Assembly: GCF_021129175.1 (NCBI RefSeq)
Contig: NZ_JAJOHV010000036.1
Coordinates: 1-39,299 of the forward strand
Direction of reading: 5' to 3'
Source: Chromobacterium piscinae
Lineage (GTDB): Bacteria; Pseudomonadota; Gammaproteobacteria; Burkholderiales; Chromobacteriaceae
DNA length: 39,299 nucleotides
Numbering within the stretch: position 1 is the stretch's first letter; each line of letters begins with the position of its first letter. The notes under the pieces are model-generated. The model saw only the letters and a program-made list of their open reading frames with translations, made no database searches and was not told where the DNA came from. Made by a program: the position numbers and the translations under genes. Shown piece by piece: positions 22,956-28,153 of the stretch.

Positions 22956-23396
22956 TTATTTTTCCGGGCCGCGGAAGGCGTCGTGACAGGTCTTGCAGTT
23001 CTGCGCCACCTGGCCGTATGCCTTCTTGATGGCGGCCAGGTCGCCGGCTTTGGCGATTGTGGCGAGGTTGTCCACCGACTTCAGGAAGACGTCGCGGTCG
23101 GCCTGGAACTTGGCTGGCTGGCTCCAGATTTCCGGTTTGGCGCGGCTCTTGCCGCTGATGCTGTTCGCTGGGAAGTGCTTGAACGGTTCCGCCGCCAGCG
23201 TCTTCATCGCTTCCGCCTGCTGCTCGAATTTGGCCTTGTCGTAAGGCGCGCGCTCGCGCACCGCCATGCCCATCGGCTCGAACGACTGCAGCAGCATTTT
23301 CTTGAATGCCTGGCTGCGGGTTTCGGCAGGCGTGTCGGCGTGGGCGGCGGGAATGGCGATCGCTGCCAGCAGCAGCGCGGTGAATATCTTGTTCAT
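22956..23396 (-). CDS. Periplasmic cytochrome c556/c' (first paralogue)
   Basis: A 146-aa exported cytochrome. Signal peptide MNKIFTALLLAAIAIPAAHA (cut near residue 20), then a four-helix-bundle type chain with the haem motif CKTCH (134-138) near the C-terminus, as in class II cytochromes c. Met42 or Met44 in helix 1 (EPMGMAVRE) could be the sixth haem ligand, favouring a low-spin c556 over a five-coordinate c'. The block AKPEIWSQPAKFQ is shared with the gene encoded 111 bp upstream, so the two are tandem duplicates. The ATG at 23396 starts the signal. Confidence 0.88.
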   Translation of the reverse strand: MNKIFTALLLAAIAIPAAHADTPAETRSQAFKKMLLQSFEPMGMAVRERAPYDKAKFEQQAEAMKTLAAEPFKHFPANSISGKSRAKPEIWSQPAKFQADRDVFLKSVDNLATIAKAGDLAAIKKAYGQVAQNCKTCHDAFRGPEK

Positions 23397-23506
23397 GGCG
23401 TCTCGAATGAATGGCGATGCATGGTCGAATGCCGGCGCGCGCGGCGCCGAACATTGATTATATCGATGACGGCGGGAAATGGGGCCGGGTGGGCGGCCCG
23501 GGCGAA

Positions 23507-23935
23507 TCAATCCTTGCGGAAATCCTTGTGGCAGGCCTTACAGGTCTGCTGGGTGGCGCCGAACTGGGCCTTGATCGCGGCCAGATCGCCGGTCAGCGCC
23601 ACTTGCTTCAGCTTGGCGGTGGCGGCCTTGTGGTTGTCGATGGCTTTCTGCCAGTCGGCGGGCTTGCTCCAGATTTCGGGCTTGGCGTCAGTCTTGCCCG
23701 CGCCGCTGCCGGCGGGGAAGTATTGCCAGGGTTGCTGCGACAGCTGTTCCAGCTTGGCGGCCTGCTTGGCGAATTCGTCCTTGTTGTAAGGAATTTCGCC
23801 TTTGACCATCTTGCCCATCTCGCCGACCACCGGCTTGTATTGCTTGAACGCCTCTTTGCGCTGGCTGGCCGGATCGGCGGCGAATGCCTGGCCGGCGATC
23901 AGCAGCGCCAGCGACGCCATTAACATCTTTTTCAT
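23507..23935 (-). CDS. Periplasmic cytochrome c556/c' (second paralogue)
   Basis: A 142-aa exported cytochrome with signal peptide MKKMLMASLALLIAGQAFAA, a helical body and haem motif CKACH (132-136). Shares with its neighbour the blocks YNKDEFAKQA versus YDKAKFEQQA, AKPEIWSKPADWQ versus AKPEIWSQPAKFQ, and GDLAAIK before the haem site. Met40 or Met43 are possible axial ligands. It is the upstream gene of the pair on the minus strand and is divergent from zur; its leader contains a 7-bp hairpin. Confidence 0.88.
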   Translation of the reverse strand: MKKMLMASLALLIAGQAFAADPASQRKEAFKQYKPVVGEMGKMVKGEIPYNKDEFAKQAAKLEQLSQQPWQYFPAGSGAGKTDAKPEIWSKPADWQKAIDNHKAATAKLKQVALTGDLAAIKAQFGATQQTCKACHKDFRKD

Positions 23936-24027: not shown

Positions 24028-24052
24028 TGTGATGTTATACAGTAACATTCGT
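24028..24052 (+). promoter_or_regulatory. Zur box upstream of zur
   Basis: GATGTTATACAGTAACATTC (24031-24050) contains the perfect inverted repeat ATGTTA-N5-TAACAT (24032-24048) and closely fits the proteobacterial Zur consensus built on TGTTATA-N-TATAACA. It ends 18 bp before the zur start, so Zur with zinc bound should block the whole zinc operon including itself. It also lies about 95 bp upstream of the divergent cytochrome gene. Confidence 0.88.
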
Positions 24053-24066
24053 TCACTATTTAGCCG

Positions 24067-24513
24067 ATGCCTATCAATATGGACCCTACCGTTTATCTCG
24101 CCGCCGCCGAGCGCCATTGCGCCGCGCGCGGCAGCAAGCTCACCGATCTGCGCCGCCAAGTGCTGGAGCTGGTGCTGAACCGCAGCGGCGTGGTCAAGGC
24201 CTACCATGTACTGGCCGACTTGCAGCAGCAGCGCGGTTCGGCCGCGCCGCCGACTGTCTACCGCGCGCTGGACTTCCTGGTGGAGCACGGCCTGTTGCAC
24301 AAGGTGGACGCGCTGAATGGCTTCATCGTCTGCGAGCATTTCGATTGCCAGCACGAGAGTCTGATCCTGGTGTGCGAACAATGCGGCCGCGTCAACGAAG
24401 TGGACGCCGCCAGCGGCCTGGCTCGGCTGCGCGAGATGGCGCAGGCCGCCGGCTTCGCGCTCAGCCCGCAAAACCTGGTGCTGGCCGGACGCTGCCAGTC
24501 CTGTGCAGCCTGA
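24067..24513 (+). CDS. zur: Zinc uptake regulator of the Fur family
   Basis: A 148-aa metal-dependent repressor. The winged helix is at about 20-85 (GSKLTDLRRQVLELVL, PPTVYRALDFLVEHGLLHKV). The metal sites include CEHFDCQHESLILVCEQCG, with the structural-zinc pair C103/C106, and a second pair C143/C146 (CQSC), which is the Zur/Fur four-Cys arrangement. Gene order with the zinc importer and the Zur box before it separate it from Fur and PerR. The start could be 24067 or the Met at 24079; neither has a strong ribosome binding site. The next gene begins 12 bp after the stop. Confidence 0.94.
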   Translation: MPINMDPTVYLAAAERHCAARGSKLTDLRRQVLELVLNRSGVVKAYHVLADLQQQRGSAAPPTVYRALDFLVEHGLLHKVDALNGFIVCEHFDCQHESLILVCEQCGRVNEVDAASGLARLREMAQAAGFALSPQNLVLAGRCQSCAA

Positions 24514-24525
24514 ATCTGAAAAATC

Positions 24526-25443
24526 ATGAACAAGACCAAAGTTAATCTGTTTACCGGCTTTCTGGGCGTAGGCAAGACCACCGCGCTGCGCCATCTGATC
24601 GCCAACCGCCCGCAGAATGAGAAGTGGGCAGTGATCGTCAACGAATTCGGCGAAGTGGGCATAGACGGCGCCGCCTTGCTCAACGACGAGCTGGCGGTGG
24701 CCGAGATCGCCGGCGGCTGCCTGTGCTGTGTCGCTGGTCCACAGATGACCGCCACCGTGGCCACGCTGCTGCGCCGCGAGAAGCCCGACCGCCTGCTGAT
24801 CGAGGCCAGCGGCCTGGCCCACGCCGCCGGCGTCATCGACGAATTGCGCGCCAAGCCCTTGGGCGAGGCGCTGGAAGTGGCCGCGGTGCTGACGCTGGTG
24901 GACCCGCGCCAGTTCATCCTGCCCGATTACCACCGCCAGCCCTTGTATCGCGACCAGATCTCGATCGCCGACGTGCTGGTGGCCAACAAGATAGACACCG
25001 CCGACATCCCGACCATGGAAGCCTTCCGCGCGCAGGCGGCGGCGCTGTTTCCGCCCAAGTCGCTGGTCGGCGAGGTGCGCGACGGCCAACTGGATGTCGC
25101 CTGGCTGGACGCCGAGCTGGCGGCCAAGCCGCGCTACCGTCCGGCGGCGCTGCCTGATAACACAAGCGCGTGGCAATCGGCCGGCTGGACCTTCGAGCCG
25201 GAACTGAATTTCGACGGCGAGCGGCTGACGCGGCTGTTCGACGACCTGCCCGCCAAAGTGCCGGGCCTGGTGCGCGCCAAGGGCGTGTTCCGCGTGCTGG
25301 ACAGTTGGGTGTGGCTGAACTGGGCGGCCGGGCAGTGGGGCGCCGCCCAGGTGTCCTGGCGCCGCGACAGCCGCTTCGAGCTGATTGCGCCGGAATTCGA
25401 CGCCGCCGCGGTGGAAGCCTGGCTGAAGGAGTGCCTGGAATGA
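24526..25443 (+). CDS. zigA: COG0523 zinc-chaperone GTPase (ZigA/CobW-like)
   Basis: A 305-aa G3E-family GTPase. Landmarks: Walker A GFLGVGKTT (11-19), the switch region VNEFGEVGIDGA, the metal-binding motif GGCLCC (63-68) that defines COG0523 metallochaperones, EASGLAHAAGV, and NKID for guanine recognition (about 152-155). The C-terminal CobW_C domain follows. In zinc-starved bacteria Zur-controlled COG0523 proteins are thought to deliver zinc to client enzymes. Being in the zur-znu operon supports that use. Its stop overlaps the start of the small His-rich gene (ATGA). Confidence 0.92.
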   Translation: MNKTKVNLFTGFLGVGKTTALRHLIANRPQNEKWAVIVNEFGEVGIDGAALLNDELAVAEIAGGCLCCVAGPQMTATVATLLRREKPDRLLIEASGLAHAAGVIDELRAKPLGEALEVAAVLTLVDPRQFILPDYHRQPLYRDQISIADVLVANKIDTADIPTMEAFRAQAAALFPPKSLVGEVRDGQLDVAWLDAELAAKPRYRPAALPDNTSAWQSAGWTFEPELNFDGERLTRLFDDLPAKVPGLVRAKGVFRVLDSWVWLNWAAGQWGAAQVSWRRDSRFELIAPEFDAAAVEAWLKECLE

Positions 25444-25625
25444 GCGAACCGCATTCGCACGATCACGGCCACGCGCACGCGCCGCACCGCCATGTGACCG
25501 CCGCCAACCTGCGCCCGCCGCTGAGCCTGCTGGCCATGTCCGCCGTTCAGCGCGTCGCGCTGACGCTGCTGCCGCTGGCCGGTCTGTGGCTGCTGGTGTG
25601 GTGGGCGTTGAGGGAGCTGGCATGA
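25440..25625 (+). CDS. 61-aa His-rich single-helix membrane microprotein in the zinc operon
   Basis: A 61-aa protein that I cannot match to a named family. Residues 1-18 carry seven His in a near-alternating pattern (MSEPHSHDHGHAHAPHRH), suited to binding zinc. About residues 37-57 form one hydrophobic helix (VQRVALTLLPLAGLWLLVWW). Its ATG overlaps the zigA stop by 4 nt and its stop overlaps the znuC start by 4 nt, so it is embedded between two translated genes. It has no signal cleavage site. By the positive-inside rule (Arg38 before and Arg58 after the helix) topology is uncertain. A role as a membrane-anchored zinc buffer or as an accessory subunit handing zinc between ZnuBC and ZigA is inference. 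Confidence 0.82.
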   Translation: MSEPHSHDHGHAHAPHRHVTAANLRPPLSLLAMSAVQRVALTLLPLAGLWLLVWWALRELA

Positions 25626-26365
25626 GCATCATCCTGAACAACCTGACGGTGTCCTACCAGCGCCATCCGGCGGTGCACCACATCAGCGGCCGCTTCGCTG
25701 ACGGCGACGCGACCGCGATTTTCGGGCCCAACGGCGCCGGGAAAAGCACCTTGCTGAAGGCGATGATAGGCGCGCTGACGCCGGATTCCGGCAGCGTGGA
25801 CCTGAACGGCCACCGCCGCAGCGACATCGCCTACCTGCCGCAGCAGGCCGAGATAGACCGCAGCATGCCGGTCAGCGTGCTGGAGTTGGTCGGCACCGGC
25901 CTGTGGCACAAGAGCGGCCCCTTCGGCCGGGTGGGGCGCGATGGCATGGCCCGCGCGATCGAGGCGCTGGAGCAGGTGGGACTGGCCGACTTCGCGCTGA
26001 GGCCGATCGCCGCGTTGTCCAGCGGCCAGTTCCAGCGCGTGCTGTTCGCCCGCATCCTGGTGCAGGACGCCAAGCTGATCCTGCTGGACGAGCCCTTCAA
26101 CGCGGTGGACGCCAAAACCACCGAAGATCTGCTGGGCCTGGTGGCGCAGTGGCGGCGCGAAAAGCGTACCGTGATCGCGGTGCTGCACGACGCGCTGCAG
26201 GTGAGGGCGCATTTTCCGCACACGCTGCTGATGGCGCGCGAAGTGATCGCCTGGGGCGACAGCGCCACGGTATTGAACGATGACAATCTGCGGCGCGCGG
26301 TGGACACCGCCGCCCATTGGCAGTCGCAGGCCCCGGTTTGCGGCCTGGATGGAGCGAGAGCCTGA
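25622..26365 (+). CDS. znuC: Zinc ABC transporter ATP-binding protein
   Basis: A 247-aa ABC ATPase. Walker A GPNGAGKST, Q-loop YLPQQAEID, signature ALSSGQFQRVLFARIL (LSSGQ in place of LSGGQ), Walker B LILLDEPFNAVD and the switch His in VLHDALQ. It energises zinc import through ZnuB. The ATG at 25622 overlaps the stop of the 61-aa gene by 4 nt, and its own stop shares one base with the znuB start. It lacks the long C-terminal extension of some ZnuC proteins. Confidence 0.94.
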   Translation: MSIILNNLTVSYQRHPAVHHISGRFADGDATAIFGPNGAGKSTLLKAMIGALTPDSGSVDLNGHRRSDIAYLPQQAEIDRSMPVSVLELVGTGLWHKSGPFGRVGRDGMARAIEALEQVGLADFALRPIAALSSGQFQRVLFARILVQDAKLILLDEPFNAVDAKTTEDLLGLVAQWRREKRTVIAVLHDALQVRAHFPHTLLMAREVIAWGDSATVLNDDNLRRAVDTAAHWQSQAPVCGLDGARA

Positions 26366-27240
26366 TGCAACATTTGTACGATCTTCTGGTGTCGCCCTTC
26401 GTCGAATTCGCCTTCATGCGCCGCGCCTTGGCCGGCTGCTTGGCCTTGGCGCTGGGCTCGGGCCCGATCGGCCTGTTCCTGGTGATGCGGCGGATGAGCC
26501 TGATGGGCGACGCGATGAGCCATGCGGTGCTGCCGGGCGCTGCGGTCGGCTTCATGTTCGCCGGCCTCAGCCTGCCGGCGATGAGCCTGGGCGGCTTCGT
26601 CGCCGGCGTGCTGGTGGCGCTGCTGGCGGGCCTCGCCACCCGCTTCACCAGCATCAAGGAGGACGCCAGCTTCGCGGCTTTCTACCTGCTGTCGCTGTCG
26701 CTGGGCGTGCTGCTGGTGTCAAAAGGCGGCAGCAATGTCGACCTGATGCACATCCTGTTCGGCTCGGTGCTGGCGGTGGACGACGCCGCGCTGTACCTGG
26801 TGTCCGGCGTGGCCACGGTGACGCTGCTGACGCTGGCCGTCATCTACCGGCCGCTGCTGCTGGAGAGCCTGGACCCGGTCTACCTGCGCGCGGTGGGCGC
26901 GCGCGGCGCCTGGTGGCATCTGCTGTTCCTGATGCTGGTGGTGCTGAACCTAGTGGCCGGTTTCCAGTCGCTGGGCACGCTGATGGCGGTCGGCCTGATG
27001 ATGTTGCCGGCAATCACCTCGCGGCTGTGGACCGAGCGCATCGAGGCCATGCTGGCGTTGGCGGTTGGCATCGCCTTCTTCAGCGGCCTGGGCGGCTTGC
27101 TGTTGTCTTATCACTTCGAACTGCCATCCGGCCCCGCCATCATCCTGCTGGCCGGCCTGGTCTATCTGTTGTCCCTGTTGTTCGCGCCGGTGGGCGGGGC
27201 TTTGCCGCGCTATATCCGCGCGCGCCACCTTGAATCGTAA
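26365..27240 (+). CDS. znuB: Zinc ABC transporter permease
   Basis: A 291-aa inner-membrane permease of the ABC-3 family with about eight membrane helices. Family sequences are MRRMSLMGDAMSHAVLPGAAVGF near residues 35-57 (shown in parts), GSVLAVDD, and MAVGLMMLPAITSRLW (about 208-223). Start: ATG at 26365, TGATG junction with znuC. It forms the channel for zinc delivered by ZnuA. Polytopic hydrophobic character runs through nearly the whole length. Confidence 0.93.
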   Translation: MQHLYDLLVSPFVEFAFMRRALAGCLALALGSGPIGLFLVMRRMSLMGDAMSHAVLPGAAVGFMFAGLSLPAMSLGGFVAGVLVALLAGLATRFTSIKEDASFAAFYLLSLSLGVLLVSKGGSNVDLMHILFGSVLAVDDAALYLVSGVATVTLLTLAVIYRPLLLESLDPVYLRAVGARGAWWHLLFLMLVVLNLVAGFQSLGTLMAVGLMMLPAITSRLWTERIEAMLALAVGIAFFSGLGGLLLSYHFELPSGPAIILLAGLVYLLSLLFAPVGGALPRYIRARHLES

Positions 27241-27256
27241 GAGTGAGGAAACACGC

Positions 27257-28153
27257 ATGAAGAAGACTTTAGCCGCCTTGCTGCTGCTGGGCATGCCGGC
27301 GCTGGCCTTGGCCAAGGTGCCGGTAGTGGCCAGTTTCAGCATCATTGCCGACATGACCCGCGAGATCGGCGGCGACCGCGTCGACGTGGTGTCGCTGGTG
27401 GGGCCGGACCAGGACGCGCACGTGTTCCAGCCGTCGCCGGCCGACATCAAGAAGGTATCCGCCGCCAAGGTGCTGGTGACCAACGGCCTGGGGCTGGAAG
27501 GCTGGATGACCCGTCTCGATAAAGCGGCCAATTTCCGCGGCGCGGTCGTAGTGGCGTCCAAGGGCATCAAGACCCGGCAGGCGCCGGAAGAGGAGCATGC
27601 CGACGAGGACCACGGCCATGACCATGGCGACGTCGATCCGCACGCCTGGCACGATCCGGCGCGGGTGCAGACCTATATCAAGAACATCAGCGCCGGCCTG
27701 ATCCAGGCCGATCCGGCAGGCAAGGCCGAGTACCAGCGCCGCGCGGCCGACTACGCCGCCAAGGTGAAGGCGGTGGACGACTGGGCGAAGCAGCAGTTCG
27801 CCGCGGTGCCGGTCGCCAAACGCAAAATCCTGACCTCGCATGACGCCTTTGGCTATCTGGGCGAGCGCTATCAGCTGAAGGTGCTGGCGATCCAGGGCGT
27901 CAGCACCGAGTCCGAGGCCTCGGCCAAGGGCGTCGCGCAATTGACGCGGCAGGTGAGGAAAGAGGGCGTGAAGGCGATCTTCATGGAAAACATGAGCGAC
28001 GCCCGCCTGCTGAAGCAGCTGTCCACCGAGGCCAAGGTCCAGATCGGCGGCAAGCTGTACGCCGACGCGCTGTCCGGCCCGAGCGGCCCGGCCGCCAGCT
28101 ATCTGCAGCTGATGCGCTACAACGTCGACACCATCGTCAAATCATTCCGCTGA
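27257..28153 (+). CDS. znuA: Periplasmic zinc-binding protein
   Basis: A 298-aa A-1 cluster solute-binding protein. Signal peptide MKKTLAALLLLGMPALALA; mature start KVPVVASFSIIADMTREIGG. Metal-site residues: His in DQDAHVFQPSPADIK, the VDPHAWHDPA block, His in TSHDAFGYLG and the late Asp in YADALSGPSG. Between them is the acidic His-rich loop EEEHADEDHGHDHGD (about 112-126), characteristic of zinc rather than manganese binders. The start follows AGTGAGGAA at 27241. It closes the operon; the stop overlaps by 17 bp the end of the convergent membrane protein gene. Confidence 0.94.
   Translation: MKKTLAALLLLGMPALALAKVPVVASFSIIADMTREIGGDRVDVVSLVGPDQDAHVFQPSPADIKKVSAAKVLVTNGLGLEGWMTRLDKAANFRGAVVVASKGIKTRQAPEEEHADEDHGHDHGDVDPHAWHDPARVQTYIKNISAGLIQADPAGKAEYQRRAADYAAKVKAVDDWAKQQFAAVPVAKRKILTSHDAFGYLGERYQLKVLAIQGVSTESEASAKGVAQLTRQVRKEGVKAIFMENMSDARLLKQLSTEAKVQIGGKLYADALSGPSGPAASYLQLMRYNVDTIVKSFR

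Follow-up and report, generated by a model that had tools for sequence, protein, structure and literature searches.

A small membrane protein encoded ahead of znuC, a putative accessory component of Zni-type zinc importers

The zinc genes of the Chromobacterium window

The stretch of DNA analysed here in its entirety (39,299 nucleotides of Chromobacterium piscinae contig NZ_JAJOHV010000036.1), called the window below, belongs to a 5.0 Mb genome. Among the best 80 of 561 ZnuB candidates the closest named one is that of Chromobacterium sphagni (97%), nearer records having possibly been left out. The genes follow each other on the plus strand in the order zur, COG0523 GTPase, small gene, znuC, znuB, znuA. 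zur (24067..24513) encodes a Fur-family zinc regulator (PF01475, E 6.2e-13), which scored 114.1 bits against the Zur model PRK11639, under the cut-off of 167. The COG0523/CobW-type GTPase gene (24526..25443; cobW, E 3.1e-42) separates zur from the importer genes and belongs to the same gene string. An earlier note on this DNA had named it zigA; it is a COG0523/CobW GTPase, and the ZigA name is not supported, the product scoring 75.8 bits with the NCBIfam ZigA equivalog NF038288, which has a cut-off of 600. On the minus strand, divergent from zur, lies a cytochrome c' gene (PF01322, 23507-23935), and the frame beside it (22956-23510) looks similar to that gene.

The three importer genes (25622-28153) encode an ABC ATPase of the znuC/zniC type (25622..26365), an ABC-3 permease of the znuB/zniB type (26365..27240) and a binding protein of the znuA/zniA type with a His-rich loop of its own (27257..28153; ZnuA, E 3.8e-90). 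All three are slightly below the cut-offs of the Azt models (211.3 bits for 220 with AztA, 256.9 for 280 with AztB and 298.9 for 350 with AztC), and identity with AztABCD was rejected. They are far below the cut-offs of the ZnuC, ZnuB and ZnuA models, with 96.8 bits for 306 in the case of ZnuC and 85.1 for 284 in the case of ZnuB; the binding protein also scored 300.1 bits with the manganese-binding MntC model (cut-off 400). An ABC-3 permease, an ATPase and a ZnuA-type binding protein are present in C-B-A order, and by these scores and this order the operon is Zni-type, not canonical Znu.

A Zur-like palindrome, ATGTTATACAGTAACAT, stands ahead of zur (24032..24048). It agrees with 15 of the 17 positions of the general Zur motif used here, and it is the top match in the window, where the runner-up scores 12. 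Boxes scoring 15-16 precede zur at 18 same-genus loci, and in operons led by the small gene (e.g. in Pseudomonas, rhizobia and Neisseria) a Zur-like box is often found about 30-90 bases upstream. This motif suggests that the operon of the small gene is controlled by Zur. Zur control has been reported for relatives of the importer (PMC9280163, available portion) and for Rhizobium leguminosarum, where the box described in the accessible part of the paper (PMC12183173) lies 153 bp before zniC, a distance that would leave enough room for the small frame.

A short gene with a constant helix and a variable tail

The small gene (25440..25625, plus strand) was recognized by sequence reading, by its relatives and by selection. 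It starts with the ATG at 25440, ends with the TGA at 25623-25625 and encodes 61 residues. At its 5' end an ATGA combines its start codon with the TGA that ends the COG0523 gene (24526-25443), and at its 3' end another ATGA combines its stop codon with the ATG of znuC (25622). An AAGGAG (25426..25431), the likely ribosome-binding site, lies 8 nt before the ATG and is the same or similar in close relatives. Residues 1-18 (25440..25493) form a His-rich tail, predicted to be cytosolic and variable across the family, with His at positions 5, 7, 9, 11, 13, 16 and 18. In an AlphaFold2 model made from 53 sequences, a helix spans residues 28-60 (25521..25619), with a pLDDT of about 95 for residues 41-60 and low confidence for the N-terminal tail. 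The frame with an ATGA overlap at each end, the seven His among the first 18 residues and the single hydrophobic helix, all described in the earlier note, are thus present. That note also took the gene to be almost certainly translated in step with the importer under Zur control; the gene overlap and the Zur-like box are seen, and from these, control and translational coupling to znuC may be supposed.

The frame is unbroken in all 19 genomes of the genus, that of the window included (E of at most 1.6e-10; 61 genomes searched). The start-side ATGA is kept in all 19, and the znuC-side ATGA in 18, the remaining genome having GTGA. Nine of the 18 same-family genomes outside the genus were followed to locus level. 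Over the last 37 codons, compared in 20 sequences from the genus and its near family, the median dN/dS was 0.39 and the pooled pN/pS 0.50, compared with a median dN/dS of 0.88 and 2.2 for the +1 and +2 frames of the same DNA; dN/dS was 0.13 in nine close sequences. Constraint extends to the first 23 codons, where the His tail is encoded: their pN/pS is 0.23 in six members of equal length. The Ka/Ks comparison proposed in the earlier note thus came out in favour of the frame, and the broken frame at the same junction that it had considered was encountered in none of the 19 same-genus genomes. By the pattern of substitutions, the small frame is a real gene under purifying selection.

Relatives were collected with a presence rule of more than 0 bits and a KD above 1.4, which retained 211 of 222 loci (190 distinct sequences); this ratio is not a frequency, as many of the loci (L001-L097) entered the set by virtue of having the small gene. 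The rule was too loose, since it would pass three controls (L249, L257 and L263, with 1.0-1.5 bits). Requiring at least 10 bits keeps 187 of the 190 relatives and passes no control, the highest control scoring 2.3. The three sequences below 10 bits, L166 (3.4), L236 (5.4) and L240 (1.4), were retained on position and sequence, and L092, which failed the first rule on hydropathy and scores 46 bits, was counted as present.

Among the 190 distinct relatives, the best conserved residues are R38 and W50 (98% each), W55 (94%), A56 (93%) and L49 (91%), all in the helix. In four loci from MAGs (L146, L155, L170 and L182), Q replaces the otherwise almost invariant R38. A motif composed after the family had been seen, R-x11-W-x4-[WFVL]-A, is found in 170 of the 190 members and in none of 62 frames taken from 19 loci that lack the gene. 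A single face of the helix is not clearly marked out by the conserved residues (peak at 100 degrees, p = 0.07). Lys and Arg are more abundant on the N side of the helix in 160 of the 190 relatives, on the C side in three, and equal in 27. The positively charged side of a membrane helix is the cytosolic one (positive-inside rule); the prevalence of positive charges on the N side therefore predicts that the N-terminus and the tail are in the cytosol. The 61-residue protein matched no Pfam or NCBIfam family; when 46 members were searched, no family was matched by more than two of them (best E 0.012), and no PDB sequence matched the small protein at E of 1 or less.

The tail is far less constant. 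It has no His in 107 of the 190 relatives, one to three in 36 and four or more in 47; these counts are approximate, the start codons of many relatives being uncertain, and longer starts give 54 members with four or more. His accounts for 389 of 4310 tail residues (9.0%) versus 11 of 4205 in the remainder of the proteins, and HxHxH occurs in 40 relatives. A tail with four or more His is present in 19 of 19 same-genus genomes. At nine named Neisseria loci the small protein has 31-35 residues, and none of the nine has a His. On a ZnuB tree the His-tailed members are scattered, with at least 12 changes on starred branches, although the tail labels are noisy (L230 and L236 are shortened). Across these relatives, then, it is the helix that makes the protein, and the His tail is an extra that turns up repeatedly. 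The His run, which the earlier note took as the defining feature, lost that status with the 107 tails and nine Neisseria loci that lack it; of the properties whose conservation was in question, the position before znuC and the helix are kept and the His run is not.

Occurrence of the small gene with Zni-type importers

The co-occurrence counts below are based on loci selected by ZnuB, not by the small gene. Among the 399 genomes sampled from the order, 80 loci have a ZnuB of at least 50% identity; three of these were cut by contig ends. The small gene precedes znuC in all of the 77 resolvable loci; it was detected by a profile hit in 72 and by DNA reading in five. The family profile itself gave 86 hits in these genomes (its rows were drawn from the same order sample, so that E-values and scores are partly self-matches). 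Seventy-one are on the same strand as ZnuB and 688-1673 bases upstream of it, which is about one znuC length, and one (G292) is before a znuC whose znuB is on another contig; the other 14, away from znuC (E 1.2e-5 to 0.01), were taken as chance. No profile hit came from nine genomes of the order whose only ZnuB is distant (31-34%). In one set of family hits, 56 of 62 loci lie before znuC, and the six that lie elsewhere (E 9.6e-4 to 0.0076) were also taken as chance.

Named loci gave the same result. The best 80 of 561 ZnuB candidates, i.e. the nearest importers, were fetched by ZnuB alone; one locus was cut (L143) and two had no znuC match (L144 and L177), and all 77 readable loci carry the small gene before znuC. 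Seventy-six score at least 10 bits; L166 reaches just 3-5 bits, yet ends in LLWVAVAWALGWLGQ. These loci span Alpha-, Beta- and Gammaproteobacteria, with Neisseria, Agrobacterium, Rhizobium, Magnetospirillum, Rhodoferax and some Pseudomonas among the carriers, a range wider than the Neisseriales envisaged before. In a gonococcal record the small gene overlaps znuC by 4 bases, five named Rhizobium loci carry the small frame, and so does an Enterobacter locus between mltB and pncC, with an ATGA. Outside the order the family is patchy and not general in the class: in a class sample of 229 genomes (228 besides that of the window), seven others had hits, four of them before znuC. The three class-sample hits away from znuC (L122-L124) were taken as chance. 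Of four PLSDB records with the small frame, three have no entry for it, in a table that is incomplete; in that of Skermanella it is annotated as a hypothetical protein.

The 4-nt overlap with znuC is the commonest arrangement (49 of 190 relatives), and the stop of the small gene ranges from -140 to +10 nt relative to the estimated znuC start. The upstream neighbour varies: it may be the COG0523 gene, zur or another gene, or there is none and the small gene comes first. In many loci the COG0523 gene is not adjacent to it. Judged by gene order, the constant neighbour of the small gene is znuC, not the COG0523 gene.

Related importers without the small gene were found by an AztB-family search of a phylum sample of 249 genomes, in which 50 of 107 places were read (the 30 best and 20 picked lower down). 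Among the 30 best, the small frame is present in none of six loci above the AztB cut-off, all from a single genus (g414), and in 23 of the 24 others, all but L222, two of these 23 (L236 and L240) scoring under 10 bits. It is absent from three of three plasmid loci annotated aztA-aztB, and altogether from nine of nine AztAB loci (L211-L216, from one genus, and L206, L241 and L242). It is also absent from 18 of 18 loci with a distant ZnuB (30-36% identity), including L258 and L260, which have another gene order. L261, with a ZnuB 47-51% identical, has it. Two small genomes keep a related importer that lacks it: L262, in a 1.0 Mb genome (G775; ZnuB 49%), and L222, in a 1.5 Mb genome (G725; ZnuB 45%), whose long branch clusters with the AztABC rows. 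In the ZnuB tree, five rows without the small gene, L222 included, make one clade (support 99) inside the others when the tree is rooted at its midpoint. This suggests a single loss of the small gene on the way to AztABC, with the rooting being unsure. As L222, L262 and AztABC lack the gene, the importer fold can work without the small protein. One further locus, L208 (Roseomonas gilardii plasmid), has a znuB-znuA pair downstream of cyd genes and a DUF2474 gene of 47 aa; the gap between them is too short for a znuC.

A possible role in the importer and comparison with known systems

The small gene is near-universal with the Zni-type importer and absent from the related types examined, which argues for a job on this importer rather than in general zinc handling. 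We consider it probable, with some reserve, that the small protein is a fourth, overlooked accessory component of Zni-type zinc ABC importers. It would be translated from an mRNA repressed by Zur, immediately before ZnuC and coupled to it through the overlap, and its single helix, with the N-terminus in the cytosol, would pack against the permease ZnuB/ZniB and perhaps also touch ZnuC, helping assembly, stability or activity of the transporter. Where present, the His-rich tail would lie close to where zinc leaves the importer on the cytosolic side; there it would probably bind the metal, either to buffer it locally or to slow import when zinc is sufficient. The contact with the importer and the accessory function are both deduced. 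Covariation with the small-protein helix was only slightly stronger for ZnuB (top z 6.2) than for ZnuC and ZnuA (4.8 each), on about 61-94 effective sequences, in a signal dominated by helix positions 37 and 38 with the partner proteins. Among the roles advanced in the earlier note, that of a regulator of ZnuBC, widened to a partner, has survived best.

The same data bear on other explanations. The His-rich tail could catch zinc as it leaves the importer and pass it to the COG0523 GTPase. Tails with at least four His, seen in all 19 genomes of the genus and in 47-54 of the 190 relatives, scattered over the ZnuB tree, the 40 relatives with HxHxH and a topology that puts the tail in the cytosol would suit a buffer of this kind. 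However, 107 of the 190 relatives with the chosen starts, and nine of nine named Neisseria loci, have no tail His, and the COG0523 gene is frequently not adjacent, so that a hand-off between importer and chaperone, as the earlier note had also proposed, is unlikely as a common role where the constant neighbour is znuC. We regard buffering and hand-off as quite unlikely. Microproteins may also be regulatory, as MgtR and SgrT are, and the small helix could be an inhibitor that shuts ZnuBC once zinc returns; that the small membrane protein is encoded together with a single type of transporter, and keeps to it, would be compatible with this. It would nevertheless apparently be made together with the importer and not at zinc repletion, which seems to fit a subunit better, and the possible His sensor is missing in most members; inhibition appears very unlikely.

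Alternatively, the frame could be a regulatory leader peptide, whose translation or stalling controls translation of znuC and whose product has no job in trans. Its place just ahead of znuC, the 4-nt overlap as the commonest arrangement and several conserved residues near the C-terminus agree with this idea, but R38, over 20 codons before the end of the frame, is constrained as well, the stop position spreads from -140 to +10 nt around the estimated znuC start, and a hydrophobic helix is retained in three classes. A leader peptide is, in our view, the least probable of these explanations, and a most unlikely one. The accessory-component reading could be extended further, to the proposal that Zni-type importers, neisserial ZnuCBA/MntABC included, are four-part systems in which a cytosolic tail, repeatedly turned into a His-rich sensor, gates import according to cytosolic zinc; this extension is speculative and rather unlikely.

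This importer type has been studied as a three-gene system in Neisseria, Klebsiella and rhizobia. Three genes are described, in the text available, for ZniCBA of Klebsiella pneumoniae (PMC10797113) and of Rhizobium leguminosarum (PMC12183173), both reporting zinc transport by these Zni-type relatives, and for neisserial ZnuCBA/MntABC (NGO_0170-0168; PMC9280163); the accessible parts of these three descriptions do not mention a small frame. The importers of K. pneumoniae and R. leguminosarum are of the same type as that of the window, and the small frame was read in Enterobacter and in named Rhizobium loci. The name ZniCBA is also used for an unrelated Cupriavidus efflux pump. No small protein of this kind came up in full-text searches of freely accessible papers, and the main text of a paper on a small-membrane-protein finder (PMC10903887) contains neither zinc nor znu. 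Should there be a fourth subunit, any reconstitution, structure or deletion construct from which it is missing is perhaps incomplete, and deletions of the znuC/zniC region may unknowingly remove or keep the small gene. The small protein offers a compact, well-delimited system in which to study what a single helix does for an ABC importer, and to learn whether the His tail senses zinc.

KdpF of the Kdp potassium pump is a small membrane protein associated with a transporter; its partner is a P-type pump, whereas the putative partner here is an ABC importer. AztABCD of Paracoccus has related ABC proteins and, in the part of the report available, a Zur motif before aztA (PMC5387054); it differs in that the AztAB loci examined here have no small gene (0 of 9). 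AcrZ (PMC7267776) is another small transporter-associated membrane protein, its partner AcrB being an RND pump and not an ABC importer. The closest in kind is CydX of cytochrome bd oxidase (PMC4325964, available portion), a protein of tens of residues, few of them highly conserved, which is often unannotated. CydX has been placed in its complex by experiment and has another partner, whereas the small protein is known from sequence, and we claim no homology between them. Like CydX, which is encoded with its enzyme and coupled to one allele type, the small protein has one hydrophobic helix and few invariant residues, and it is encoded with, and tied to, one partner type (with L222 and L262 as exceptions).
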